Positions 1,829 through 18,030 of a stretch of 64,000 bases of DNA are shown here, piece after piece (the first letter of the stretch is position 1; the number at the start of each line of letters is the position of its first letter). The notes below the pieces were generated by a model. That model was given only the letters and a program-made list of their open reading frames with translations, had not been told where the DNA came from and searched no databases. This DNA is from Methanocella paludicola SANAE (GTDB lineage: Archaea; Halobacteriota; Methanocellia; Methanocellales; Methanocellaceae): contig NC_013665.1 of NCBI RefSeq assembly GCF_000011005.1, forward strand, positions 2,333,501 through 2,397,500, in the 5' to 3' direction. A program made the translations under genes and the position numbers.

Positions 1829-3516
1829 TCACTTTCGGCGCCGACCTGCACGATCATGCGTTCGCCCGGCGCAAGGAGTTTCTTTTAACCGCCGGGGACG
1901 CCTACTGCTCGTCGTCGCTCGCAGGCAATACCCGTAAGTACCATGGTCTCTTTGTGGCCGGGCGGCGAGTGTATATATCCTGCCTTGAAGAAGAGGCAAA
2001 TGGCGAGCGATTTTCCGTTCACCGGTACTCAGGTGCCCTTCAGGACGAGGGGCTTAGTTCCTTATATGGTTTCGAGCTTTACCCGCCAATATTCTATTAC
2101 ATGGTCGACGGGGCCTCGATAAAAAAGACCATCGAGTTCGATGGAGAGCTTACGATACGCTACGATGTCGAAGGAGAAACGAACCTGCACATCAGGCCGC
2201 TCATCACTGACCGTGGCTATCACGAAACGAAGCGGAATGTCGAGCTAAATGCGGCTTGCACGGTGAACGGCTTCAGCTCGGGGAAGCTTTCAATACGCTC
2301 CGGCCTGCGGTTCAAAGAGGACCCGCAGACTTATTATAACGTTTTCTATGAGCGTGACTCGGAGAGGGGATATGACCACGTCGAGGACCTCTGGTCGCCA
2401 GGGTACTTCGAAGGCCGGGTGAAAGATGCCTCGGTTTCCATATGTGCTGCTGTCGATGGCGTCCGGAAGGCGCCGATAAACAGGATGACGCCTATCGATC
2501 CTGCCGACGCCCTTGAGCTCGCGGCGGACAGCTTCCTGGTCGACGATACGATATACGCCGGGTACCACTGGTTCGCCGAGCCGTGGGGCCGGGACACATT
2601 CGTCAGCGTGCCCGGGCTGCTGCTCGAAAGGGGCAGGTTCGAGGAGGCGAAGCGCGTCTTCCGGCATTTTGCGAGGCACATCAAGAACGGCCTGATACCG
2701 AACAGGATACCGGGTGGCTATAATTCAAGCGATGCACCCCTGTGGTTCATCTATGCGCTGGGCAAATATTTCGAGAAGCGAAATGACACGGCCTTTTATC
2801 GTGAAGCAAATGGCTATGTCGAGAGTATAATGAACGGATACCCTGAGAGCGAAGCGGCTACGCTGGATGGCTCATTGATCTCGACCGCCCCCGAGACGAC
2901 GTGGATGGACACCCGGTACACGGGCAGAAAAGGCAAGGCCGTAGAGGTGAACGCCCTCTGGGTCAACGCCCTTGAGATCGCTGAAGGTATGGGACTTATG
3001 GCGCCCGTTAAGCCAGTTGCAGCACGGCGTGAGATGGACAGGTTCTGGAACGAGAAAAAGGGGTGCCTCTATGATGTTATAGACCCGTACGACGATTCGG
3101 TCAGGCCGAACCAGGCCATCGCCATCGCCCTTGGCGCCATTGATGGGGAAAAAGCAAAACGGGCGATGAGAGTAATTAGAAAAGAGCTGCTCACACCTTA
3201 TGGATTGAGAACGTTGTCGCCCATGGATAGCCGTTACATTGGCCGATATTCTGGCGACCCGTCATACCATAACGGATGTGTATGGCCATGGCTCATGGGC
3301 TTCTACATCGAAGGGGCCCTGAAGGTGAGCGAACCCAAAGAAAAGCTAAGGCCTCTGCTGGAGCCTTTACTGCTGCATACGCACGACGCGGGCCTGGGAA
3401 CGATATCGGAAATATTCGATGGCGACGCGCCACACGAGCCCAACGGGTGCATTTCCCAGGCGTGGAGCGTAGCCGAAGTGATCAGGGCACGACAATTGTT
3501 GAAACATGCGCCGTAG
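1825..3516 (+). CDS. Glycogen debranching enzyme (amylo-alpha-1,6-glucosidase)
   Basis: A 563-residue protein. The N-terminal domain (about residues 10-190) contains the GDE_N signature around LAGNTRKYHGLFVAG. The C-terminal (alpha/alpha)6 barrel of the GH133 type (about 215-560) contains WFAEPWGRDTFVSVPGL, PNRIPGGYNSSDAPLWF, STAPETTWMDTR, EVNALWVNALE and the late DPSYHNGCVWPWLMGFY block. It cleaves alpha-1,6 branches of glycogen. The start overlaps the upstream GT4 stop, giving a three-gene alpha-glucan operon. Length is that of short archaeal/bacterial single-function enzymes rather than the large eukaryotic bifunctional form. Confidence 0.9.
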   Translation: MITFGADLHDHAFARRKEFLLTAGDAYCSSSLAGNTRKYHGLFVAGRRVYISCLEEEANGERFSVHRYSGALQDEGLSSLYGFELYPPIFYYMVDGASIKKTIEFDGELTIRYDVEGETNLHIRPLITDRGYHETKRNVELNAACTVNGFSSGKLSIRSGLRFKEDPQTYYNVFYERDSERGYDHVEDLWSPGYFEGRVKDASVSICAAVDGVRKAPINRMTPIDPADALELAADSFLVDDTIYAGYHWFAEPWGRDTFVSVPGLLLERGRFEEAKRVFRHFARHIKNGLIPNRIPGGYNSSDAPLWFIYALGKYFEKRNDTAFYREANGYVESIMNGYPESEAATLDGSLISTAPETTWMDTRYTGRKGKAVEVNALWVNALEIAEGMGLMAPVKPVAARREMDRFWNEKKGCLYDVIDPYDDSVRPNQAIAIALGAIDGEKAKRAMRVIRKELLTPYGLRTLSPMDSRYIGRYSGDPSYHNGCVWPWLMGFYIEGALKVSEPKEKLRPLLEPLLLHTHDAGLGTISEIFDGDAPHEPNGCISQAWSVAEVIRARQLLKHAP

Positions 3517-3577
3517 CAAGGTTTATCAATTCACTGGCTATTAATTATTTATTCTACAAGCCTCTGGCGGGGGTAGC

Positions 3578-5350
3578 ATGGTCACGAGGGATAATAAATT
3601 ACGGGTGTTCTGGCGTAGCCGGGTTAAGCCTTTCTGGAGAGAATTTGAGATCCCCGTGATGATCGCCATCGGTGTTGCCGCATTCGCCATGGGCGTGATA
3701 GGCTTTGGCGATTATTATAACACGATAAACCAGCCCCGGCCATTCCTGGACTGGGTCTTTCTCACTATTGTGATGTTCCGTGGCATCTTTCTCCAGGCCG
3801 GGCCCCTGCCGCTCGAGCTGGAGATCGCCCGGTGGGCGGCCATATTCATCGTGCTCTATGCGGCCATCCGGGTCCTGACGGCCTTATTTTATGAGCAGGC
3901 GCACATCCTGATCCTCAGGTGGCTAACCTCGGACCACGTGATCATCTGTGGCCTCGGGGAAAGAAGCGGTGGCCTCATCAGCGAGTTTTACAGGATGGGG
4001 TACAGTGTCGCGGTCATCGATAAGAACCTGAGCAGGGAGATGGCCCAGAAATGTAAAGATAAGGGTGCTGTCATCCTGAATGGCGATCCATCCGATGAGG
4101 AGCTCATCCGCCGGGCCCGCATAGATCGCGCTAAGTATATCATTGCTGCCATGGACGATGACAGCGCGAACGCGGCAGTAGCGCTGGCCGCCCGGGAGCT
4201 CGTTAAAGGAAAAGAGGGCCGGCCCCTCACCGGTTATGTCCACATCGTGGATAGGGCGCTGTGTAATCTCCTCAAGGCCGATTACGAGTTCAACCGCAAG
4301 GCAAGCGACCGGCTCCGCCTCGAATTTTTCAATTCATACGACGATGGGGCGCGGGCACTGGTCAGGGAGTACCGGCCCTTCGGCGAAGGCTGCACAAGCA
4401 TAGCCATCGTCGGCCTGGGAAAGTTCGGCGAAAGCCTGGCGATCAGAGTCGCCTCCGAGTGGCTTCTTTACGAAGGCCGTAATGGAAGGCGATTAAGCGT
4501 TATAGTGGTGGACTCCAGGGCCACGAAGACGATATCGAACCTATTAATGCATTATCCGTTCCTTGATAGCGCCTGCGATTTTATGGCCTACGACATGGAG
4601 CCTGTTCACTCGGGAGTGCTTTCCCAAAGAAACCCGGGCATCGTATACGTTTGTCAGGACAATGACAGTGAAACGCTCTCGACTGCCATAGCCCTGCGAA
4701 AGGCGCTGTCCGGCACGACGGTGATCGCCTGCCTCAACCGTAGTTCAGGCCTGGCCAGGCTCGTGGACCGCATCGGAAAGGAACAGGGCCTCCAGGGCCT
4801 GGGATTTTTCAGCCAGCTGGAGGCGGCCTCCCGGCCGGAGATCCTGATGGGAGGCACTCGCGAGGCCATCGCGACGGCCATCCACGAGGAGTACGTACGG
4901 TCTCAGGCGAGCCAGGGCTTCACGCCCGAGAAGAACCCCTCGATGGTCCCATGGGAAAAGCTTCCCGAGACCCTCAGGGAATCGAACCGGCACAACGCGG
5001 ACCACGTGCTCGTAAAGCTCGCCGCCATGGGCTGCGGCATCGAGCTACTGACCGATCCGGCAGCGCTCGACTTCAGGTTCTCCGGCGAGGAAATTGAAAA
5101 GATGGCAGTCATCGAGCATGACCGCTGGTGCGACGAGCGCCTGGGGCAGGGGTGGAAATATGCGCCCGGGCCCAAGGACATCGAAAAGAAGACGAGCCCC
5201 TACCTAGTGCACTGGGATAAGCTGAGCGAGGAGATCCGGGAGTATGACCGGAATGTCATCCGGGGGTTGCCTGTGGCCCTCGCCCGGGCGGGGTTCCAGA
5301 TCTACCGGATCCGTAAGCCGGCAATCACTGACCCCATTAGAGCTATTTAG
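3578..5350 (+). CDS. Membrane-anchored TrkA-N/RCK protein with tandem RyR domains
   Basis: A 590-residue protein. Two hydrophobic segments (about 25-43 and 84-105) flank a hydrophobic loop placed like a channel pore helix but without a recognisable TVGYG filter. Two Rossmann NAD-binding TrkA-N units follow (GLGERSGG near 125 and VGLGKFGES near 278). The C-terminus carries two ryanodine-receptor-type (RyR) units, about 433-490 and 508-578; the second has EHDRWCDERLGQGWKY and the LSEEIREYDRN pattern. RCK domains gate ion channels by ligand, and RyR domains occur in predicted nucleotide-sensing conflict systems. The stop overlaps the end of the opposing TIR-NACHT gene by 8 bp, so an associated role is plausible. 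Ion selectivity and ligand are unknown. Confidence 0.75.
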   Translation: MVTRDNKLRVFWRSRVKPFWREFEIPVMIAIGVAAFAMGVIGFGDYYNTINQPRPFLDWVFLTIVMFRGIFLQAGPLPLELEIARWAAIFIVLYAAIRVLTALFYEQAHILILRWLTSDHVIICGLGERSGGLISEFYRMGYSVAVIDKNLSREMAQKCKDKGAVILNGDPSDEELIRRARIDRAKYIIAAMDDDSANAAVALAARELVKGKEGRPLTGYVHIVDRALCNLLKADYEFNRKASDRLRLEFFNSYDDGARALVREYRPFGEGCTSIAIVGLGKFGESLAIRVASEWLLYEGRNGRRLSVIVVDSRATKTISNLLMHYPFLDSACDFMAYDMEPVHSGVLSQRNPGIVYVCQDNDSETLSTAIALRKALSGTTVIACLNRSSGLARLVDRIGKEQGLQGLGFFSQLEAASRPEILMGGTREAIATAIHEEYVRSQASQGFTPEKNPSMVPWEKLPETLRESNRHNADHVLVKLAAMGCGIELLTDPAALDFRFSGEEIEKMAVIEHDRWCDERLGQGWKYAPGPKDIEKKTSPYLVHWDKLSEEIREYDRNVIRGLPVALARAGFQIYRIRKPAITDPIRAI

Positions 5351-8300
5351 CCCCCTTTTTCGCGCCGGAGAGCTCAAGCTCTTTGACCGGGGCTTTACGG
5401 TCTTCGAGGGCATGAAGGACGCCGCTCATTTGTTCCAGGCACCGTATAAGATCGGGCTTCAGGGCCATATCCTTACAATAGGCCCGTTGCTCCTTCAGCG
5501 CCGTGAGCGCCCCCTCGAAGTCGCCCTTCGCGGATAACGCCATAGCTTTCTCGCCCAGGCACTCCTGCAGGCCGTACTTATAGCCGATCTCCCGGAACGC
5601 CTTCTCTGCCTCGCCATGCAGCGCAAGGGCATCGTCAACGGCGCCCCCCATACGTAAAATAATGGCCTGGTTATTCAGGGACACGGCAAGGTCACGCTTA
5701 TGGCCGATCTCCCGGCAGATACGCTCCTGCTCCCGGTGGACTGCCAGAGCGCCGTCCAGGTCTCCCCGGAGGCGAAGTATGGCGGCCTGCTGGCCCATGC
5801 AAAACTGGATGCCAAAAGGATTGTCGATATCACGGCATATCTGCATAGCTTCCCCGACGATACGCCCGGCTGCATCGAGGTCGCCCTTTTGGCGTAAACA
5901 TAATGACTGCTCATAGAGAACGTCCCACAGGTACCATTTATAATTCAGCTCCCTGCACAACATCTCGGCCTTTTTAAGCGCTTCAAGTGCCCTGTCGTAC
6001 TCTCCACGCCATATGTCTATCGTCGATATGCCTATCATCGATTCACATAAAAGCTTCTTATCGTTCGTTTTTCTGGACAGGGCCTCAACCTCTTTAAAGA
6101 GCTTGACTGCGGCATCCAGTTCGCCTAAGGCTTTCATGACAATGCCCTGATTCGACAGGGATTCCTTAACCCCGTCGATGTTACCGATACTCCGGCAGAT
6201 GCCCTCCTGCTCCTTCAGCAGGGCCATGCCTGCGCCGACGTTGCCCTTCACGCGCTGGATCGTGCTCTGCTCGTTCAGGCAGGCGCAGAGGCCCTCGTAA
6301 TTGTCCGTCTCCCGGCAGATACGCTCCTGCTCCCGGAGTATCGACAGGGCCTCGTCGAACTCGTTGCGCGTCCAGAGGTATTCCGCCCGGGACTGCAGGG
6401 CTTGCTGCAGGCAGCCCAGGTCACCGCTTTCACGGCACTTACGCTCCAGCTCTTCCAGCAGGGGGACCGCGCGCTCATGGTCGGACATCGTCACGAGGAG
6501 CGATACCTGCTTACTAAGGACCTCCCTTAGCTCGTCGTGCCTGCCGGCACTGCGATACCGGTCGGCCAGGTGCTCGTAAATCCTGCAGGATTCCGCGACC
6601 CTGAACGAGCTCATCAGCATACTCGCCGCGACCTCAAGGCGCCTTTCATCATAGCCCGGCGGGTTCTCGATCATCCCCTTTAACATATCGGTCATGTACA
6701 GGCCATCGTGCTCTTCGGCGACGGCCCACCACCGCATGACGTTGAACCTGTCCAGCGACCATTCGCGGCTGACGAAATCCATGTTCCTCAGGACTTCTTC
6801 GGCCTCATAGGCCATATCGGCCAGGCACAGGTGCATGGGCAGATATTTCATCATCGGGCGGTTCCAGGCAGGCTTCCCTTTTTTGTAATGCTCCAGCAAA
6901 TATGTCCCCAGTATCCTGTGGCCCTCGCCGGCACTCACAAAATACCGGTCGTCCTTCTTTTCGTCCGTGAGCCATTCCATGACCGAGGCATGGAACGGCC
7001 GGACGCCGTCACTGTTCGCGATAAAGAGCGATCCCAGGGATAGCTTGAGCTCGCGCTCTTCGTGCACGTTCCACTTGAATATTGCCGCGATCGATCGCAG
7101 GCTCAGGGGCTCGAACGAGGCGGCCATGATCTCGAGCACGGGCCGGATGCGGGCTTCCCACGCCCTGATGTCGGGGAACTGGCGCTCGAAGAACCGAAGG
7201 TAAATTCCCCCGAGCCCCTTCGGGAAGTCGTCGATATTATCAAGCGATAGCCGCCCGTATTTTATTTCTTTTACGACCCATTCGGCATAGATAAAAAGCC
7301 CGTTACACTTAGCTGCGACCTTTTTTATGGTATCGGCCGGCACGCCCTCGCCCAACTCCCGTGCAAGAAACTCTTCTACGTCATCCTCGTTCCGGACATC
7401 GCCCGTTTCGATGGCGAACTGCCTGTACGCCTGCAGCGCCCCCGCGACTTCCGGCTCCGGCCGGCTCGTGACGATGAGCCGGAGCCATTGCGGCGTGCGC
7501 TCCAGCTCTGACGCGATAAATCCGGCGAGGTCGTTCTTCCCGTCGACCGTCGCCTCGTCGAGCGCGTCGATCACGATGACCATAGCCTGCCGTGGCCGGG
7601 GGAAGTCACGGGACAGGGGCTGCACGATGAGCTTATCGAAGAGCGCGCGGGCGTTCAATCCGGAGAGGTCCTCCAGGCTCATCCTCGCAAGGCGCCGCTC
7701 ATATTCGGGAAGCTGTGTGCTGAGCTGGTACGCGAGCGACATGATGCACCTTCGTGGATCGATCTTCTGCACGTTATCGTGGCGGCAGAAGTGGAACGCT
7801 GCGACCTCCCGCCAGTTGGCGCAAAGCCACGCTGATATAGAGGTCTTGCCCACGCCGGGGCGTCCGGTGATCCAGAACACGCGCTGGGCATCACTATCGT
7901 TAAGCCATTCTTCGATGGCTTCCGTGACCCAGGTGCGCCCGATGAAACGATGAAGGTTGTATTTGATCTCCGAATCGAAGGACAGCGGCTTCAGGGCGCC
8001 GGCCAGCCTTGCCTGGGCGCCTGCGACGCTCTCCGTCCCGTGCTCGATCACCTCCAGAAGAGCCTTTAGCTTCTCCTCGTACGGCCCGGGGCTCCGGTCG
8101 ACAGGGAGGCAGTCCTGCATGTCGAGCCACTGGATCCGGCAGATGCTCAGCGGAGGCTCGCACCAGGACAGCATGACCGGTATGACCTTCATGTTCAGCT
8201 GGATGGCCCTCGCCAGCTCGTTAAGGCAAAAGCCGTCCGGGCGGCGGACGGAGTGGGGCGTCATTAGAAGTATGAGCTGCCCATCCGGGGACTCGGAGGC

Positions 8301-8495
8301 CCACGCCAGCCCGTCCTCGATATACTGTTCCCAGTCCGCGCCGGGCTTGATGCGGTCGGCGTCGAACCATACGTCGTACCTCCGGGCGATAAGGTCGTTT
8401 TTCAGGCGGAGGGCGAAAGATACGTGCTCGTCACGGCCGTAGCTCAGGAAGATGCGTTTTTTCGGGGATATGCCCTTGATCCGTTCCTCCGTCAT
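5343..8495 (-). CDS. TIR-NACHT-TPR STAND protein (candidate NADase immune sensor)
   Basis: About 1050 residues. N-terminal TIR domain (about 10-150): RIFLSYGRDEH, DVWFDADRI and GFCLNELARA, whose Glu (about residue 93) sits where TIR NADases have their catalytic Glu. NACHT/STAND ATPase next: Walker A GRPGVGKT near 211-218 and Walker B VIVIDALDEA near 306-315. A winged-helix-like middle precedes TPR-like repeats with a 40-residue period from about 640 to 1040 (repeated EQERICRE units). ATG at 8495 is chosen over the upstream TTG at 8510. It lies 53 bp downstream of the M43 peptidase gene on the same strand and overlaps the RyR gene tail to tail. STAND sensors with TIR effectors are known antiphage and regulated-death proteins; that role here is inferred. 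Confidence 0.85.
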   Translation of the reverse strand: MTEERIKGISPKKRIFLSYGRDEHVSFALRLKNDLIARRYDVWFDADRIKPGADWEQYIEDGLAWASESPDGQLILLMTPHSVRRPDGFCLNELARAIQLNMKVIPVMLSWCEPPLSICRIQWLDMQDCLPVDRSPGPYEEKLKALLEVIEHGTESVAGAQARLAGALKPLSFDSEIKYNLHRFIGRTWVTEAIEEWLNDSDAQRVFWITGRPGVGKTSISAWLCANWREVAAFHFCRHDNVQKIDPRRCIMSLAYQLSTQLPEYERRLARMSLEDLSGLNARALFDKLIVQPLSRDFPRPRQAMVIVIDALDEATVDGKNDLAGFIASELERTPQWLRLIVTSRPEPEVAGALQAYRQFAIETGDVRNEDDVEEFLARELGEGVPADTIKKVAAKCNGLFIYAEWVVKEIKYGRLSLDNIDDFPKGLGGIYLRFFERQFPDIRAWEARIRPVLEIMAASFEPLSLRSIAAIFKWNVHEERELKLSLGSLFIANSDGVRPFHASVMEWLTDEKKDDRYFVSAGEGHRILGTYLLEHYKKGKPAWNRPMMKYLPMHLCLADMAYEAEEVLRNMDFVSREWSLDRFNVMRWWAVAEEHDGLYMTDMLKGMIENPPGYDERRLEVAASMLMSSFRVAESCRIYEHLADRYRSAGRHDELREVLSKQVSLLVTMSDHERAVPLLEELERKCRESGDLGCLQQALQSRAEYLWTRNEFDEALSILREQERICRETDNYEGLCACLNEQSTIQRVKGNVGAGMALLKEQEGICRSIGNIDGVKESLSNQGIVMKALGELDAAVKLFKEVEALSRKTNDKKLLCESMIGISTIDIWRGEYDRALEALKKAEMLCRELNYKWYLWDVLYEQSLCLRQKGDLDAAGRIVGEAMQICRDIDNPFGIQFCMGQQAAILRLRGDLDGALAVHREQERICREIGHKRDLAVSLNNQAIILRMGGAVDDALALHGEAEKAFREIGYKYGLQECLGEKAMALSAKGDFEGALTALKEQRAYCKDMALKPDLIRCLEQMSGVLHALEDRKAPVKELELSGAKKGAK

Positions 8496-8548
8496 ATGGA
8501 TAATGAACAATTGGCGATTCGGGGCTTAAACTCATCGTTCATAAAAAA

Positions 8549-10873
8549 CTACTCCGGAGTCCTTACGACGAACCTCTGGCCTCCGACGGTCTGATATGAC
8601 CCGGAAACAAGTTCCTTCTGGACAATATCGAACGTTAATACACTATGGCGTAAATCCTGGCCCGGCTGGGGAGTAAATGTGAACGATATCGTATAGTACA
8701 TTGCGAGATCGACCGGAAGCTCGATCCATGCGCCGGAATGCAGTATGGTAAATTTGCCGTCGTCGACGATAGTTAGGCCGTCGCTTTTACCGTCATGATC
8801 CTTCCAGTTCTGGAAGATTTCCTTATCGATGTCAAGGCCCACGGTGCCCCATTTAAAGATGGATGCGGGAAAGAGCCCGGATAATGCGATCTGCTCGTTG
8901 ACCGGCGCTATGAAAAATAGCTTGATGGACTCCGGAGGCTTCTTTTTAAATATTATTTTCTCCGGTTTTTTGTGTATCTTTGGCAAGTGTTTTTTAAATA
9001 CCTTGTTAATGGTCACATGCCCGTGCCATATGCCATTGACTTTTTCGGCGATCGTGATATTCCGCATTGCGATGTTATTGTTGTTCCTCAGATTATCCCA
9101 GAGGCTCGAGCCTTCGGGCGTCGTCATGCCGTACGGGTGAACTGTTTCCGTCTCGATGCGCGCGAGCAGGCAGAAATGGGTCCGGTCTGCGCCCATGGCA
9201 CTGTAATCCTGCGGGTTCGGAGGATACCAGTTAAAAGGTATGATAATGGAATGGCCCGGTTCTATAACGCCGATAGGCTTCCCGTCCACGGGCTCGATCC
9301 TGCCGCCCATCAAGGGCGAGGTGACCGATCCGTCCCACGGGGCAGGCCAGCCCAGTCCCGTCGATGCCTTAGCCCAGTAAAGCTTGACAACGCCCCCCTT
9401 CGTCGGCATACAGCCGCGGTTTCGAACGCGGACGTACACGATATTCAACTGCCCATGCACGGGGTTTTCATGGTCCAGGACCATCGGGCGGCCGTCGTCG
9501 GCAAAATATTCTCCGGCGTTGACCCAGATATCCTCGCTCACGTGCAGGAGCTTTGACCTTGAATCCGGCTCATCCCCGATGTCATCCGGTGAATGGCTTA
9601 TGCTGGGGTCCGCGACAGGGCCTGCGCCGGGCGGAGGATATGCGCCGAGCGAGTCCAGGATGGTACCCCTCGTACCTCGCAGCGTCGCCTCCATTGCCTT
9701 AGCCTGGCCGGCGGTGAACATTACGGCACAGCAGTCCTGTGTGGAGTCCATGTAGTTCATGAACATGTCCCCGGTCTCCGGGCTCCCCCCGGGGCAGGAC
9801 CGGTAGGGATATGCGCTGCAGGCCCCGTTCGCCGACTCGGTACACGAGACCCAGTATTCAGGGTCCCGGTATTTCAGGCTGATGGGGCATCGATAGTCGC
9901 CAGCATTAAGGTCACAATTGATACTCGTGAAAAATCTGCACTTCCCATTGATGGACTGGCCGTTGCAGCTTGTGGCCGGGTCGAAGCCGTTAAAAGGGCA
10001 ATAGCTATTCTGGTATTTTTGATTGGGCGTATCGTCCACAAAACTTTCCGCGGCATCGGAATCCTTACAGGGGTCATCATTGTCCAGGAGGTCGCCCGCG
10101 ACATGGTACAGGTTGAGCCAGTGGCCGACCTCGTGCACCAGCCTCCGGCCGCCATTGGTCCGGGGCCGGACCGTGCCGGGCTTGTTACCAAAACTACGGT
10201 AATCCATCACGATGCCATCGCATTCCCGGGGCCACCCGGGAAATGAGCCATAGCCGTAGATCTCAAACCACACGGTCCGGCCGTCGTCCGTATACGGGTA
10301 GGGATTCAGCTTACATACCCATATGTTCAGGTAACTCTCGGGCGGCCATGGGTCATGGCCGCCTGTGGCCGCGTGCTTAACGGTATCCGTATGAGGGTCG
10401 AACTGAGGGTGGTGCGGGTCGTGCGACCAGAAATCGGGAGGCGTGAATCCATCGACGGACGTCTCCGTTCTCGTGACGCCCGTGAGGCCGGACTTCGACG
10501 ACCGGCATTCCGGGTCTCTTTCCGCCAGCCGGAACTCGATGAGAGTATTTGCTGCCAGGTTAAAATAGTCGGGCACGAGGTTCCTCACGTACTGCAGGTC
10601 CGCGTTCAGCTTGTGGAAATCCCGGTTCAAGATCTCGATCTGCTTCCGGATCTGGTCATCCGAAATGTACTGTTCTTCATGGCCTTTTTGATATACCACG
10701 TGGACGACGACGGGTATTTTCATAGTCGTGATGTTCTGGTAACTGGAAAGCTTGGCATAGCTCTTCGCGAAAATATTAATGAGCTGCCTGTTTATCACGT
10801 AGGGCTTATAGATATCCAAAAGCTGCTTATGCATTTTACACGTTATACAGGATGCAAAGTCAAGTCCGGCCAT
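8549..10873 (-). CDS. M43-type (pappalysin/cytophagalysin) zinc metallopeptidase
   Basis: A 774-residue protein. The catalytic domain spans about residues 50-420 and contains the extended zinc motif HEVGHWLNLYH (about 247-257) and a Met-turn segment MFMNYMDSTQD (about 370-380), typical of family M43. Several Cys pairs lie between them. The C-terminal ~340 residues are beta-rich, with a CARDB/Ig-like stretch around VRVRNRGCMPTKGG and NNNIAMRN. No signal peptide is visible (it starts MAGLDFASCITCKMH), unusual for M43 enzymes, which are mostly secreted. The ribosome site GGGGG lies 7 nt before the ATG. It is the first gene of a probable operon with the TIR-NACHT gene. Confidence 0.85.
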   Translation of the reverse strand: MAGLDFASCITCKMHKQLLDIYKPYVINRQLINIFAKSYAKLSSYQNITTMKIPVVVHVVYQKGHEEQYISDDQIRKQIEILNRDFHKLNADLQYVRNLVPDYFNLAANTLIEFRLAERDPECRSSKSGLTGVTRTETSVDGFTPPDFWSHDPHHPQFDPHTDTVKHAATGGHDPWPPESYLNIWVCKLNPYPYTDDGRTVWFEIYGYGSFPGWPRECDGIVMDYRSFGNKPGTVRPRTNGGRRLVHEVGHWLNLYHVAGDLLDNDDPCKDSDAAESFVDDTPNQKYQNSYCPFNGFDPATSCNGQSINGKCRFFTSINCDLNAGDYRCPISLKYRDPEYWVSCTESANGACSAYPYRSCPGGSPETGDMFMNYMDSTQDCCAVMFTAGQAKAMEATLRGTRGTILDSLGAYPPPGAGPVADPSISHSPDDIGDEPDSRSKLLHVSEDIWVNAGEYFADDGRPMVLDHENPVHGQLNIVYVRVRNRGCMPTKGGVVKLYWAKASTGLGWPAPWDGSVTSPLMGGRIEPVDGKPIGVIEPGHSIIIPFNWYPPNPQDYSAMGADRTHFCLLARIETETVHPYGMTTPEGSSLWDNLRNNNNIAMRNITIAEKVNGIWHGHVTINKVFKKHLPKIHKKPEKIIFKKKPPESIKLFFIAPVNEQIALSGLFPASIFKWGTVGLDIDKEIFQNWKDHDGKSDGLTIVDDGKFTILHSGAWIELPVDLAMYYTISFTFTPQPGQDLRHSVLTFDIVQKELVSGSYQTVGGQRFVVRTPE

Positions 10874-11424: not shown

Positions 11425-12813
11425 ATTGCGTCACATAAAAAAGAAGTCGACTGCAATAAGCCGTTAGTCTATCCTTTTGTTACGATCCGGCCGGAGGGCA
11501 CTGGAGCCCTCCTTTTTAACTCTTTTTCGGGCATTGAGATCGAGCTAAGTCAGGATGAAACGTTAATCGCTTCATTATGTGACGGCCGTCATACGATAGA
11601 TCAAATAACCAGGGCCGTGATCAAGCATTCCGGGAAGGACGAGGATGACTCCAGAGCCTGTGTCCAGGAGACAATGGATAAGCTTTCCCGGGCGCTGGCC
11701 ATTTCGCCTCCCGGCCATAAGCTTCTATCCTATATCCTGGCCAGGCAGAACCGGGAATTTAATAAAATGGTACCGGCCCTTTCGGCGCCGAGGCAGGTCT
11801 TCTGGGAAGTGACCCATGCCTGCAACCTCCGCTGCCTCCACTGTGTAACATCGTCCGGCAGTAAGGATAATGACGAGCTGGATTCGCAGGAGGCTTTTGC
11901 GCTCATCGACAGGCTGGCAGACATGAAGGTCTTTTATCTAATAATAACGGGCGGCGAGCCGTTCCTTCGCCCGGATATCCTCGAATTGCTCCGCCATATC
12001 TCGACGAAGAACATGATGGTAAAAGTCGATACGAACGGCACGCTGATCGACGATGATGCCGTCGATGAATTATTGTCGTTGAGATTATCCAGCATACAGG
12101 TGAGCATCGACGGTATAGGCGGATCTCATGACCGCTTCAGGGGTAAAAAAGGCACGTATAAAGCAGCCTGCGGCACGATAGAACGTCTCATAAAAAAAGG
12201 TATACCTACTAATATCACGACGACGGTTACGCGCCAGAATTTGAGCGGCCTGAACGCCGTCATCGACCTCGCGGTGAGGCTCCATTGCAATGGTATTACC
12301 ATAAATCCCTTCGTGCCGGTCGGAAGGGGGCTTGATAATCAGGGGCTAAAGCTCGATGGCGAGGATTATTATCGCCTGTATCAAACGATACATACGCGGG
12401 CCCGGGAGCTTGCCGGTATAATAACTATATCCACCGACATCGGATTTACTTTCCTTTTTGAGCCCTCATTGCCGGAGATGAGGCCGGCAAAATATATGGG
12501 ATGCGGCGTGGGCTATGACACGCTGAGCATTGGGGCCGGAGGCACGGTATATCCATGCCCTTTTTTACATGAGTATCCGCTGGGGAATATCAGGGATGTG
12601 TCTTTAGAGGAAATATGGGACGACGCCAGCTTCCTTAAGTCTCTGCGGCCATTACATAAAAGAGATATGGGCGGGGAGTGCAAAAACTGTAAACATGCAT
12701 TAAGAAAGTGCACGGGCGGGTGCAGGGCTCGGGCTTACCACGAATATGGCGATCTAAAAGCGCCTGACCCGGCATGCATTTTTTCAAAAATAAAAAGCGG
12801 GGACCAACGTTAG
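11425..12813 (+). CDS. PqqD-like domain fused to radical SAM/SPASM peptide-modifying enzyme
   Basis: Reading frame 1 is open from 11389. Its first 80 codons encode a PqqD-like peptide-binding domain (YPFVTIRPEGTGALLFN, LCDGRHTIDQI). The radical SAM core follows, with CNLRCLHC (C-x3-C-x2-C), TGGEPFLRPD and QVSIDG, then a C-terminal SPASM domain with about ten Cys (CGVGYDTLSIGAGGTVYPCPF, CKNC, CTGGC). No ATG, GTG or TTG occurs in frame before GTG 11617, which would remove most of PqqD. I annotate from ATT 11425, next to GGGGAG; a frameshift from TTG 11426 is the alternative. It probably modifies the small protein encoded just upstream. The 3' end overlaps the opposing peptidase gene by 4 bp. 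Confidence 0.75.
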   Translation: MASHKKEVDCNKPLVYPFVTIRPEGTGALLFNSFSGIEIELSQDETLIASLCDGRHTIDQITRAVIKHSGKDEDDSRACVQETMDKLSRALAISPPGHKLLSYILARQNREFNKMVPALSAPRQVFWEVTHACNLRCLHCVTSSGSKDNDELDSQEAFALIDRLADMKVFYLIITGGEPFLRPDILELLRHISTKNMMVKVDTNGTLIDDDAVDELLSLRLSSIQVSIDGIGGSHDRFRGKKGTYKAACGTIERLIKKGIPTNITTTVTRQNLSGLNAVIDLAVRLHCNGITINPFVPVGRGLDNQGLKLDGEDYYRLYQTIHTRARELAGIITISTDIGFTFLFEPSLPEMRPAKYMGCGVGYDTLSIGAGGTVYPCPFLHEYPLGNIRDVSLEEIWDDASFLKSLRPLHKRDMGGECKNCKHALRKCTGGCRARAYHEYGDLKAPDPACIFSKIKSGDQR

Positions 12814-13685
12814 ATCTTGAACTCCCCGGTATCGACCCACTTCGAGTCGATGAGCGTCCACCAGTCCTGGGCCAGACCCTTGAGCACGTACTCGTATGGC
12901 AGCCACCCATAGCCTTTATCGCCCCACCCGGTGCCCCAGGAGTTCCGTATCAGGAAGGCGCCGGTCGTCTGCTTGCCGTCGGCCTCGTTCTTAATTTTCA
13001 TGCGGTCATCGTGGCCGACCGCCATGATGGCGTGACCGCCCTCGATCCTCTCGCCCTTCGACGGGTACGGGATCTTGCCGTCCTTATCGGCCTGCGAGAT
13101 GGAGCTGTACACGGTAAAGCCGAACATTGCCGGAAGGCTCGCCGCCAGGCTGGCCTTGATCTGCGAGAGCACGTCCTTTGCCGCCTTGTTGGCCGGGTCC
13201 AGGCGGACGTACTTGAGTGACTGGTAGTTCTGGGCGAACGCATAACAGAACGTAGGCGGCTCGTCGTCGAACTTCTTCACATCATAGGGCCAGTACTCTT
13301 CCGGAGGGGCCCCGAAAAGCGCCAGCGCGCCCATGGTGGTGCGTAAATACGCTCCGGTATCGCCCGACTCATGCATGAGCGTACGAGTCGCCTTATACAG
13401 GAACAGCCGGGAGGCATCGATGTGCTTCCCGAACGCCTTGCGCTCGAAGTATTCGACCATGCCCACGCCGGCGTTCGCCGTGCACGAGCCCAGTTGGCCC
13501 TGGTCCTCGATGGGCGGGCACCATTTTCTCAGGTCTACTGCATCTGGCAGCGTGCTTTCTTCAGCCTTAAGGACGCCCGCCTTGCTATAGATCGGCTTTA
13601 CCTTGTCGGTGGTCAGGGTATAATCCCTGAAGTCAGGATAGTCCGGACGCCACCCCGTCCAGTATTTACCGTTGATCGGCCTCAT
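12810..13685 (-). CDS. Papain-like cysteine peptidase (family C1A)
   Basis: A 291-residue protein. The catalytic Cys lies in EDQGQLGSCTANAG (the Q of the oxyanion hole precedes it), the His in EGGHAIMAVGHDD, and the Asn in IRNSWGTGWGDKGYGWLPY. The order and spacing fit family C1A. No signal peptide and no long inhibitory propeptide: residues 1-45 resemble the short head of archaeal/bacterial C1A proteins, so it looks cytoplasmic. It converges with the radical SAM gene (4-bp overlap). A leader-peptidase role for the neighbouring candidate RiPP is only an inference; general proteolysis is equally possible. Confidence 0.88.
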   Translation of the reverse strand: MRPINGKYWTGWRPDYPDFRDYTLTTDKVKPIYSKAGVLKAEESTLPDAVDLRKWCPPIEDQGQLGSCTANAGVGMVEYFERKAFGKHIDASRLFLYKATRTLMHESGDTGAYLRTTMGALALFGAPPEEYWPYDVKKFDDEPPTFCYAFAQNYQSLKYVRLDPANKAAKDVLSQIKASLAASLPAMFGFTVYSSISQADKDGKIPYPSKGERIEGGHAIMAVGHDDRMKIKNEADGKQTTGAFLIRNSWGTGWGDKGYGWLPYEYVLKGLAQDWWTLIDSKWVDTGEFKI

Positions 13686-13963
13686 CGTATACCTCCCAAA
13701 AGTCGCCGGATGAGCGATGCCCCCGTATGCCCATCCACTGTAAGCTATTATATTTTATTAATTACAATACAAAAAACTTTTTCCTCTACATGCGTTTTTA
13801 CAGCGCGCTCATCGGTCTCCCTCGCACGCCGCTCATTCCATATACGTCCAACCTGTTGCCCATCATTACGAAGCTGTACATTCAGCTTGAGGCGGTATTT
13901 ATGGGTCGAGGTCCTTGTATATGCCCTACGCCCCCCAAACTTTAGGAGGAGTGCCGATAATCG
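13686..13963. other. Intergenic region, no supported gene
   Basis: 278 bp between two leftward genes. The part next to 13686 holds the ribosome site (GGAGG) and an AT-rich stretch that may be the C1A peptidase promoter. A GC-richer stretch at about 13790-13945 is open on the minus strand but has no start codon and no recognisable family. I see nothing else. Confidence 0.4.
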
Positions 13964-14347
13964 TTATTTGAAGGTCTTGATGCCCATCGAGGTGAGGGCT
14001 TCCGCCGCTCTCCACCTGACGTTGAAGTCCGGGTCTTTCAGGGCCTTCTCGAGCGCCGGAGCGGAGCCGGGGTCCTTGATCTTACCGAGTGCGCAGGCGG
14101 CGCACTTCCTGACGTCCGGGCAGCAGTCCTCCAGCGCGCCGGCCAGAAATGCGGCGGCCCGCGGGTCGTTGAGCATGCCGAGCGCCTCTGCGGCACTCGC
14201 CCTTACTTCCTCATCGCCAGTGCGGAGATGCCCGGCGAGGGGTTCGATCACGTTCACATCGCCCGTAAGCCCCAGCATTTCGATGGCGACGAGCTTCAAT
14301 TCCTTGTTCTCATTGTTCGAGTCTTCAAGCCAGTCATTCATATCCAT
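13964..14347 (-). CDS. HEAT-repeat protein
   Basis: 127 residues made of about three HEAT-like alpha-helical repeats with the PBS-lyase-type pattern (GDEEVRASAAEALGMLNDPRAAAFLAGAL, then DVRKCAACALGKIKDPGSAPALEKALKD, then NVRWRAAEAL). Start chosen at 14347 because AGGAGG lies 7 nt upstream; the frame extends upstream to 14425 without a better start. Such small repeats are protein-protein scaffolds. No catalytic residues are visible. It lies alone between two AT-rich gaps, next to the peptidase and DUF5661 genes, and its partner is unknown. Confidence 0.8.
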   Translation of the reverse strand: MDMNDWLEDSNNENKELKLVAIEMLGLTGDVNVIEPLAGHLRTGDEEVRASAAEALGMLNDPRAAAFLAGALEDCCPDVRKCAACALGKIKDPGSAPALEKALKDPDFNVRWRAAEALTSMGIKTFK

Positions 14348-14659
14348 TTCCTTAACCTCCTTTTGCAGGCGATCCTTCTTATTAAGCACTCTCCTGCAAT
14401 TATACATTAAGGGCCATTTATACATATAATTTGCGGTTGTTTGTCCACAAATTTTAATTTTTTATCCTATAAGGGTTAATTAAGTGTACATTCGTATTAT
14501 TCAATTATTTGTAAGATAGCTATTAGCCAGGCAGAATTATAATTCAGGGGAGTATAAGGAATAATTTATAAAATATCGAGTTATATGTGGCTGAAAAGGG
14601 AAATAAAGGTTTATTATACGATAATATAAAATTATTAAAAAATGGCCTGATAAAAAAAG
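14348..14659. other. AT-rich intergenic region
   Basis: 312 bp, strongly AT-rich, between two leftward genes. TATA-like stretches on the minus strand near 14400-14470 probably belong to the HEAT gene promoter. No coding frame, repeat or RNA structure that I can support. Confidence 0.4.
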
Positions 14660-16749: not shown

Positions 16750-18030
16750 GGCAGTGTCCCGTATTTTCTGTAATTTTGGTTTTAGCCCTTGTATTCGTTA
16801 TTCTAGTCATTGCGTTCCAGGTCTATATGTTTTTTGTCTACTGCATATTCCTCGTTCACGTCCATCAGGATGTTTACGATGACTCGTAACGCGGATTGGT
16901 TGCTTGGAAATGCTCCGATGGGCCTGGTTCTTCGTTTTATGAGACTGTTCACGTTCTCCAGGGTGTTGGTCGTTCGTAGTTTTATCCATTGGTGTGGGGG
17001 AAATGCCAGGTAGTTATAGAGGCAAGGCAGGTTTTTATCGATCAGGCTGCTGGCCTTGTCAAAACCACGGGCTTCGAGATCTTCGGCCAGGTTGGCCAAA
17101 AGGTTAGGAGATTCCATGTGATCTTTCAGTAATTGGTTGATCTCGCCTCTCTGTTTCGCTGGTACGGTCTTTATCACGCTTCTTCTGAAGTGTACGTGAC
17201 ACAACTGCCAGCTGGCACCCAGAAAACACTGCTCAACAGCCTTTTTAATCCCCTTATGCCCGTCGCTGATAACCATTTTTATGCCTGTGAGCCCCCGTTT
17301 CTTGAGATCATCAAAGAACACGGTCCACCAGTCCTCATCCTCCCGGTCCATGATCCTCGAGTCAAGTATCTCCTTGTACCCATCCTGATTGACGCCCATG
17401 GCGATGAACACGGGCTTCGAGACGTACATCCCATTATCTCTCACCTTGATGTAGGTGGCATCAACGAACAAGTACGGAGTACCTCCAAGAGGCCTCGCGA
17501 GGAAATGTCTCACATCATCATCCAATTCCTCACTTATTCTGCTTACACTGCTTTTACTCACCTCAACACCAAGAGTCTGTAATACCTTCCTCATTTTCCG
17601 CGTGCTGACGCCCTGAAGATAGGATTCGCTAATGACATTCACCACCGCCTTTTCAGCCCTGCTGTACCGGTCGAACAGACAGGTCTCAAAAGGCACCTCA
17701 CGAAGCTGAGGCTTCTCCAACTCCACCTTACCATAACGAGTCACCAATCCACGAGACTTATACCCATTACGACGAGCCCTCCTTCCCTCCGCCCGCTCAT
17801 AATGCATAGCCCCGGCCTGCTCACACGCCTCTTCCTCAAGAATACTATTAAGAAGATCCCTGATAAGATTCTTCATAGCATCCGAGTCTGCCCTAATATA
17901 TTTCAACGCGTACTTCGTATCACTGTATGGCCTTGTATTCCTCATATTTTGTTCTCCAAACAATAAATTGAGAATACAGGGCTAAAAATATTAACCAAAT
18001 AAAAACAAATTACAGCAAAATAGGGACAGA
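16750..18030 (-). mobile_element. IS256-type insertion sequence with 9-bp target duplication
   Basis: A 1281-bp element bounded by direct repeats GCCATCGTG at 16741-16749 and 18031-18039. Its ends are imperfect inverted repeats: one reads GTGTCCCGTATTTTCTGTAA, the other, complemented, CTGTCCCTATTTTGCTGTAA. It carries one full-length transposase. The insertion point is proven by the uninterrupted repeat at 41058-41377, which reads straight through GCCATCGTGTCATTG. IS256-family elements typically duplicate 8-9 bp. Confidence 0.92.
16803..17945 (-). CDS. IS256/Mutator-family transposase
   Basis: 380 residues from ATG 17945 (GGAG 9 nt upstream; an upstream TTG at 17963 is less likely). It shows the Mutator DDE triad: Asp in YLFVDATYIKVR, Asp in MVISDGHKGIKKAV and Glu in TTNTLENVNSLIKRRTRP, plus the W-x-LCHVHFRR block. 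The frame is intact, so the element could still be active. It fills nearly the whole insertion sequence, with no passenger gene. Confidence 0.93.
   Translation of the reverse strand: MRNTRPYSDTKYALKYIRADSDAMKNLIRDLLNSILEEEACEQAGAMHYERAEGRRARRNGYKSRGLVTRYGKVELEKPQLREVPFETCLFDRYSRAEKAVVNVISESYLQGVSTRKMRKVLQTLGVEVSKSSVSRISEELDDDVRHFLARPLGGTPYLFVDATYIKVRDNGMYVSKPVFIAMGVNQDGYKEILDSRIMDREDEDWWTVFFDDLKKRGLTGIKMVISDGHKGIKKAVEQCFLGASWQLCHVHFRRSVIKTVPAKQRGEINQLLKDHMESPNLLANLAEDLEARGFDKASSLIDKNLPCLYNYLAFPPHQWIKLRTTNTLENVNSLIKRRTRPIGAFPSNQSALRVIVNILMDVNEEYAVDKKHIDLERND

Follow-up and report, generated by a model that had tools for sequence, protein, structure and literature searches.

The 64,000-nucleotide stretch of the Methanocella paludicola SANAE genome analysed here (NC_013665.1, positions 2,333,501 to 2,397,500; hereafter the window) contains a gene for a membrane protein that combines a channel-like part, a TrkA-type gating ring and ryanodine-receptor (RyR) repeats, and that lies tail to tail against a gene encoding a TIR protein. 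Genes with this combination, which we call RyR-TrkA, stand beside TIR genes in several phyla, and the pairing looks selected and non-random. We consider it probable that the two genes of the window form a Thoeris-like pair, in which an ADP-ribose-type signal made by the TIR protein acts through the RyR module on a channel of the RCK type. A narrower proposal, that a ryanodine-receptor repeat lets cyclic ADP-ribose (cADPR) made by a TIR enzyme gate an ion channel and that this constitutes a prokaryotic immune circuit, is put forward tentatively.

RyR-TrkA genes are often paired with TIR genes

The RyR-TrkA gene of the window (3578-5350, plus strand) and its TIR gene (5343-8510, minus strand) share 8 bp at their 3' ends (5343-5350), as the initial annotation had read; by itself this overlap means little. 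That annotation had suggested a functional link between the two genes and a check of other genomes for the same company. A TIR open reading frame (ORF) is found at 29 of 45 distinct RyR-TrkA loci, versus none of 19 TrkA-only control loci, so that homologues are far from being almost always without TIR or STAND neighbours. The 45 loci (L numbers below; G numbers are genomes) are made up of the 34 loci, among 53 in a genome-contig scan, that carry RyR in the matched frame, together with the archaeal rows and four Chloroflexota rows, minus two duplicates; the 19 scan loci without RyR are the controls. By length and sequence L051 is the contig of L037 and L054 that of L049, each pair being counted once, and L094, very like L092, was kept. 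TIR ORFs were called with a local profile at E 1e-3 in stretches of mostly up to 10 kb per side (the TIR of L037 lies at 10.1 kb). A first profile missed L068, L092 and L094, which a second round recovered, and Pfam confirms TIR_2 in L092 and, at the matching place, in the genome of L094. The gene next to L057, at E 0.0075, was not scored as TIR, and the TIR frame of L072 appears to contain one TAG.

At 17 of the 45 loci the TIR gene lies within 300 bp, in co-directional (eight), convergent (five) or divergent (four) orientation, a mixture that led us to reject the operon as the general basis of the pairing. Convergent 4-bp overlaps with the TIR gene recur at L035, L061 and L107. The 17 include L067, which has a longer TIR ORF in the same locus and whose adjoining TIR, directly after RyR-TrkA (12515-12700 of that locus), is a fragment of 61 residues, probably a decayed partner.

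Judged by the TIR counts and the sizes of the genomes, 0.44 cases would be expected in 31 genomes under uniform placement, and 19 of 31 were seen; the estimate takes placement to be both uniform and independent and should not be read as a true probability, and the Mycobacteriaceae rows are close kin rather than independent cases. The contrast with the controls is partly a genome-level one, since 28 of the 31 genomes with RyR rows have TIR_2, versus 6 of the 18 with control rows (a count that omits L051, L054 and L100, and in which L070 does not figure either). Several control contigs are short, and the TrkA-only genes are probably housekeeping genes, hence a mild control.

Across 392 genomes of the phylum (Halobacteriota), the window's own included, relatives spanning TrkA-N to RyR occur at nine places in eight genomes. 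RyR (PF02026) is present in 21 of the 392 and TIR_2 in 162, with TIR in 18 of the 21 RyR genomes versus 144 of the 371 others (Fisher p 3e-5), and, of 28 RyR frames, 14 have a TIR on their own contig at a distance of ~12 kb or less (counted by hand from coordinates). In Chloroflexota, nine of 301 genomes have RyR, and six of these nine have a same-contig TIR within ~3 kb (G397, G456, G522, G536, G585 and G625); G397 was the centre of the search, its pair known beforehand, which leaves five new cases out of eight. The genomes without a nearby TIR are G451 (contig of 5.8 kb), G617 and G697.

The arrangement of the window is repeated in G251, from another archaeal family, where a RyR-TrkA protein 31% identical to that of the window meets a 1865-residue TIR-STAND protein tail to tail with a 4-bp overlap. 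The TIR-STAND parts of the two proteins are 42% identical over 593 columns, with WD40 repeats in G251 where the window has TPR; a conserved pair whose sensor part has been exchanged is what would be expected of an immune receptor and its effector. G251 has a further TIR gene upstream, and more TIR genes and a 102-residue RyR frame follow within 15 kb. The overlapping partner at L061 is a TIR-nSTAND1-WD40 protein, and TIR partners at other loci carry TPR (L038), PknH_C (L069), WD40 (L108) or a kinase-like part (L056, below cut-off). Near the RyR-TrkA gene of L034 a TIR domain is joined to PKD repeats (12283-14613).

The two proteins of the window

The RyR-TrkA ORF starts with ATG and encodes 590 residues, in a genome that is a single contig of 2,957,635 bp. 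Its structure model, built with 30 sequences (mean predicted local distance difference test 88.7, predicted template modelling score 0.81), runs from a first transmembrane helix, TM1 (residues 4-49, hydropathy peak at 25-43; 3587-3724), through a pore helix (56-67; 3743-3778) and a pore loop (68-78; 3779-3811) to a second, TM2 (79-103; 3812-3886), followed by two alternating strand-helix parts of the RCK type and a helical RyR part. The two membrane segments of the initial annotation are therefore recovered, with the pore helix between them. As for the two TrkA-N domains it had listed, the first (RCK1, about residues 118-240; 3929-4297) is named by Pfam (TrkA_N at residues 121-211, E 8e-20, 71.7 bits versus a cut-off of 23.8), and the second (RCK2, about residues 272-415; 4391-4822) is seen in the model and goes unnamed by Pfam. 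RCK1 reads GLGERS at its glycine motif, Ser130 replacing the third glycine, and RCK2 has an intact GLGKFG and Asp312. Two RyR modules in one chain are borne out both by Pfam, which matches RyR in two stretches (E 1e-16, 61.4 bits versus a gathering cut-off of 27.4), and by the model, whose fold there matches human RyR3 Repeat12; repeat 1 spans residues 424-497 (4847-5068) and repeat 2 residues 498-582 (5069-5323). Elsewhere in the genome, RyR has no match at E 0.001.

For this model Foldseek ranks the TrkA gating ring and the GsuK channel highest (E 1e-11 to 1e-10), followed by RyR3 Repeat12 with AMP-PCP or ADP (E 4e-8 and 8e-8). In VIA-align the model superposes on TrkA with Z 22.6 (268 aligned residues, 3.3 Å), on a Bacteroides/human RyR chimera with Z 15.2 (149 residues, 2.7 Å) and on RyR3 Repeat12 with Z 14.8 (159 residues, 3.1 Å); residues 20-426 align with GsuK at Z 21.1 over 342 residues and 8.9 Å, so that the placement of domains differs between model and GsuK. 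Residues 119-426 align with the rings of TrkA and KtrA. A gating-ring fold with a TrkA-N domain is thus present, by Pfam and by fold match to TrkA, KtrA and GsuK.

The pore loop has no TVGYGD-type filter, in agreement with the initial annotation. A regular expression matched VIGFGD, which we rejected as a filter because it sits at the end of TM1, outside the pore loop. In this region TVGYGD is kept by three distinct relatives, L052, L056 and L037 (the last on the same contig as L051), and most family members conserve the pore helix and TM2 and lack the K+ signature. L052 and L056 match K+ channel models across the pore with scores below the model cut-offs, and the N-terminus is different and shorter in L038, L053 and L054 (the same record as L049). 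We infer an ancestry among K+ channels, with a filter that has since been changed or lost.

The gene on the other strand begins with TTG and encodes 1055 residues; an in-frame ATG at residue 6 would place its start at 8495, the limit given in the initial annotation. It comprises a TIR domain (residues 20-132; 8115-8453; TIR_2 at 59.9 bits versus a cut-off of 28), a P-loop STAND NTPase (residues 197-350; 7461-7922) and a region of TPR superstructure repeats that is the probable sensor part (residues 654-1040; 5391-6551), NPHP3_N, NACHT and TPR_12 all scoring above cut-off. Nearly all aligned TIRs have Glu in the column of Glu98, which lies in the motif FCLNEL and which we take to be the catalytic residue. 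The domain match and Glu98 make this TIR a candidate NADase. At L035, a TIR beside RyR-TrkA (7751-8821) has Gln in that column and is possibly inactive or regulatory, and the other two TIR ORFs of that stretch keep Glu.

A putative ligand pocket in the RyR module

RyR domains of this family have been studied in the phage protein RyDEP, a glycosidase that cleaves 2'/3'cADPR; the available text of PMC13232231 gives H75, W78, H100 and D117 as its ligand contacts, with H75 and D117 as the catalytic dyad, and mentions Q54 among the residues mutated. Eight other RyDEP homologues are assayed in that text, none of which cleaves and six of which bind (PMC13232231). Aligned to RyDEP (L104), the window protein has H514, W517, S540 and D557 in repeat 2, so that three of the four ligand residues are kept. 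RyR modules without a ligand pocket would have spoken against the initial annotation; over 40 sequences, the H75 column is His in 40, the W78 column Trp in 39 and the D117 column Asp in 32. The fourth residue, Ser in the window, is variable (H 14, S 13, D 6, N 4, T 2, R 1). These counts omit L051, L049 and L094, and the structure alignment omits L075, L078, L087, L094, L097 and the archaeal rows L033-L039.

Repeat 1 has His436, Tyr439 and Asn470; Tyr439 is the matching aromatic, and all 40 sequences carry Y, W or F in its column. According to the available part of PMC12627627, two tryptophans of human RyR3 Repeat12 stack, one on the adenine ring of the nucleotide and one on a drug, and the binding of both closes the Repeat12 clamshell. 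By analogy, Tyr439 and Trp517 may be the counterparts of these two stacking residues.

Other partners of RyR domains

RyR domains without a TrkA part also adjoin TIR genes, among them a PAS-RyR protein (L040, with a HisKA match just under cut-off; L041-L043 are of like size and unscanned), a SLOG-RyR protein (L045) and a stand-alone RyR (L110). In Chloroflexota, two genes beside TIR genes join RyR to TPR-S and a guanylate-cyclase-like domain (L111, 9788-11869; L112, 2838-5687), where a relay from TIR to cyclase is conceivable; at L112 the adjoining gene is a TIR joined to a BioY-like membrane domain (1617-2816).

TIR is not the sole partner, since some of the 16 RyR-TrkA loci at which no TIR was called have other RyR, SLATT or RelA/SpoT genes (RelA/SpoT-RyR or SLATT at L055 and L087, for instance). 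AAA-RyR genes in G308 and G196 have no TIR nearby, nor has a G329 gene of like size whose domains were unscanned, and in G345 the AAA-RyR gene, inside a RyR-TrkA locus, has a TIR at a distance of 8 kb. Because AAA-RyR genes and RelA/SpoT-RyR or SLATT loci occur without TIR, the RyR domain probably serves more than one signal. L055 holds three RyR genes in 2455-10403, encoding an AAA-RyR (AAA below cut-off), a RyR-TrkA and a RelA/SpoT-TPR-SLOG-RyR protein; the local TIR profile called no TIR in this contig, and RyR may here read a RelA/SpoT-type nucleotide. Burroughs and Aravind reportedly described nucleotide-based conflict systems of SLOG, RyR and TPR-S, and the loci gathered here resemble these in that RyR, SLOG, SLATT and TPR-S genes share neighbourhoods.

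A probable signalling pair and its alternatives

We propose that the TIR-STAND-TPR protein would act as the sensor, its TPR part recognising an infection cue, after which the STAND module would oligomerise and the TIR domain would convert nicotinamide adenine dinucleotide (NAD+) to an ADP-ribose-type signal, perhaps 2'cADPR, 3'cADPR or ADP-ribose. The tandem RyR module, a clamshell resembling Repeat12, would take up this signal in its cleft, and the ensuing movement would pass through the RCK ring to the pore of the two-helix K+-channel type, opening or closing it; the changed conductance of the membrane would then halt or kill the cell, presumably as an antiviral measure. Both gating by the TIR product and conduction of ions by the pore are things that we infer.

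Nearest to this in its working is the Thoeris system with TM-macro ThsA, in which, as the available text of PMC11204291 has it, the gene of a TIR enzyme stands beside that of a membrane protein with an ADP-ribose-type sensor domain. Judged from the genes alone, the window is alike in that its TIR gene adjoins a membrane protein with a nucleotide-binding type of domain. It differs in that this domain would be RyR rather than macro, that the membrane part is a two-helix pore with an RCK ring, and that its TIR domain belongs to a larger chain with STAND and TPR. No SIR2-SLOG or TM-macro effector match was found in the pair by Pfam at E 0.01, neither protein scores above the cut-off of any Thoeris NCBIfam model (five further pairs likewise lack a Thoeris match), and no PADLOC model matches the RyR-TrkA protein at E 0.1. 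For want of such matches we do not file the pair under a known Thoeris type and call it Thoeris-like in its presumed working.

Several observations weigh against the proposed pair. The equivalent of H100 is Ser540, and His occupies this position in just 14 of 40 sequences; the RCK1 glycine motif is broken; and the modelled pore is without a filter of known type, for which reason conduction is unproven. The genes of the window, being convergent, are not one operon. No TIR is found in the stretch at 16 of the 45 loci, four of them on contigs shorter than 6 kb (L054, L059, L078, L106) and 12 longer (L036, L055, L057, L060, L062, L063, L066, L075, L077, L087, L093, L109), and Pfam finds no TIR_2 match anywhere in the genomes of L057, L063 and L075. 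To our knowledge, no RyR-TrkA member has been assayed for binding, for channel activity or against phage.

The same absence of the K+ filter from most members bears on the first alternative, that the membrane part does not conduct and that the signal makes RyR-TrkA cluster and breach the membrane, much as nucleotide-driven oligomerisation is proposed for TM-macro ThsA in the available text of PMC11204291. The shortened, different N-termini of L038, L053 and L054 would also suit it. A pore helix and TM2 conserved in most members, and TVGYGD retained in L052, L056 and L037, speak for a pore, and we think this alternative unlikely.

Alternatively, the channel could sense the depletion of NAD+ by the TIR enzyme through the binding of NAD+ or ADP to its RCK domains, without any TIR-made signal. 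The gating ring matches that of GsuK, a dual-RCK channel activated by ADP and NAD+ (PMC3510474, in the part available), and RCK2 retains GxGxxG and Asp312. The window protein indeed resembles GsuK and MthK in its two-helix pore and RCK gating ring, in tandem as in GsuK, and differs from them in lacking the TVGYGD filter and in its added RyR module. Sensing of NAD+ loss leaves unexplained the RyR proteins without RCK that stand beside TIR genes, as well as the lack of TIR neighbours at all 19 TrkA-only loci, and the broken glycine motif of RCK1 tells against it, which together make it quite unlikely in our judgement.

The RyR module could also be an off-switch, cleaving or soaking up the TIR product as RyDEP does, with the channel part reporting or relieving the signal instead of bringing about cell death. 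The window protein shares the PF02026 fold and the H/W/D pocket residues with RyDEP and with sponge RyR proteins, and H514 and D557 correspond to the catalytic dyad; RyDEP itself is a glycosidase, and of the eight other homologues assayed in the available text of PMC13232231 none cleaved and six bound. The window protein differs from RyDEP, a phage anti-defence protein, in that it is cellular, belongs to the membrane and is encoded next to a TIR gene, and in having Ser for H100; it would be strange for a hydrolase to be carried by a membrane channel, and cyclase-like and PAS/HisKA-like parts are further fusion partners of RyR. Asp is lost in 8 of 40 sequences, therefore hydrolysis is not general. 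We hold this alternative to be improbable.

That the genes are neighbours merely through the clustering of defence and mobile genes, with no functional coupling, might draw on the commonness of TIR genes (162 of 392 genomes of the phylum), on the neighbour of the L107 pair, an SMC-like ATPase that matches mad3, on the G345 AAA-RyR gene 8 kb from a TIR and on the mildness of the control, and is nevertheless very improbable given the 17 of 45 pairs within 300 bp, the recurring stop-codon overlaps, the repetition of the TIR-STAND/RyR-TrkA arrangement in G251 and the absence of TIR near the AAA-RyR genes of G308 and G196.

Binding of TIR-made cyclic ADP-riboses by RyR has been shown recently, in proteins with which phages counter defence. 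The loci described here unite RyR with a channel-like protein, stand next to TIR genes in several phyla and are candidates for cellular receptors. If the proposed pair works as outlined, a membrane-channel branch would be added to TIR immunity, and the old question of whether cADPR acts on ryanodine receptors, and at which site, would gain a small model. If cADPR itself proved to be the gating signal, the pair would parallel, in a cellular and channel-coupled form, the action of cADPR on the ryanodine receptors of animals, and the disputed link between the two could be tested in a protein of 590 residues. The animal receptor is, outside Repeat12, far larger and built differently. Repeat12, which binds adenine nucleotides (PMC12627627, available part), is where the two are alike, both having a tandem RyR clamshell within a channel-like protein. 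A RyR gene beside a TIR gene is also a simple rule for finding more such systems. Our literature searches turned up no title on cellular RyR-TrkA/TIR pairs; a 2025 survey preprint of TIR systems, cited in the available text of PMC13232231, may already list RyR effectors.

Descent and surroundings

On a tree of 40 rows (without L094 and L106-L109) the TIR label changes 11 times, at least seven of these changes being forced by starred branches, and shuffled labels give a mean of 11.7; being about as scattered as when shuffled, the TIR linkage is not one inherited neighbourhood. The four rows nearest the window protein are bacterial, the closest 40% identical, which suggests lateral transfer; no starred set contains the window protein, and several rows sit on long branches. 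In a search for an empty site, the debranching-enzyme gene of the left flank, the only flank gene tried, had no match at E 1e-50 in the three other genomes of the family. Measured in 1-kb windows, the gene pair has a GC content of 0.56-0.62, close to the value of the left flank. By tblastn the RyR part matches one phage record (E 4e-6); there are 14 plasmid records, none covering 80% of the query and two of them RyR proteins.

Beyond the TIR gene, and all on the minus strand, the window holds an adjoining gene for a 774-residue protein that scores just over the cut-off as an M43 pappalysin-like metalloprotease (8549-10873), a papain-family (C1) protease gene (12810-13685) and, ~8 kb past the TIR gene, a Mutator-family transposase (16803-17963), hinting at a mobile neighbourhood.

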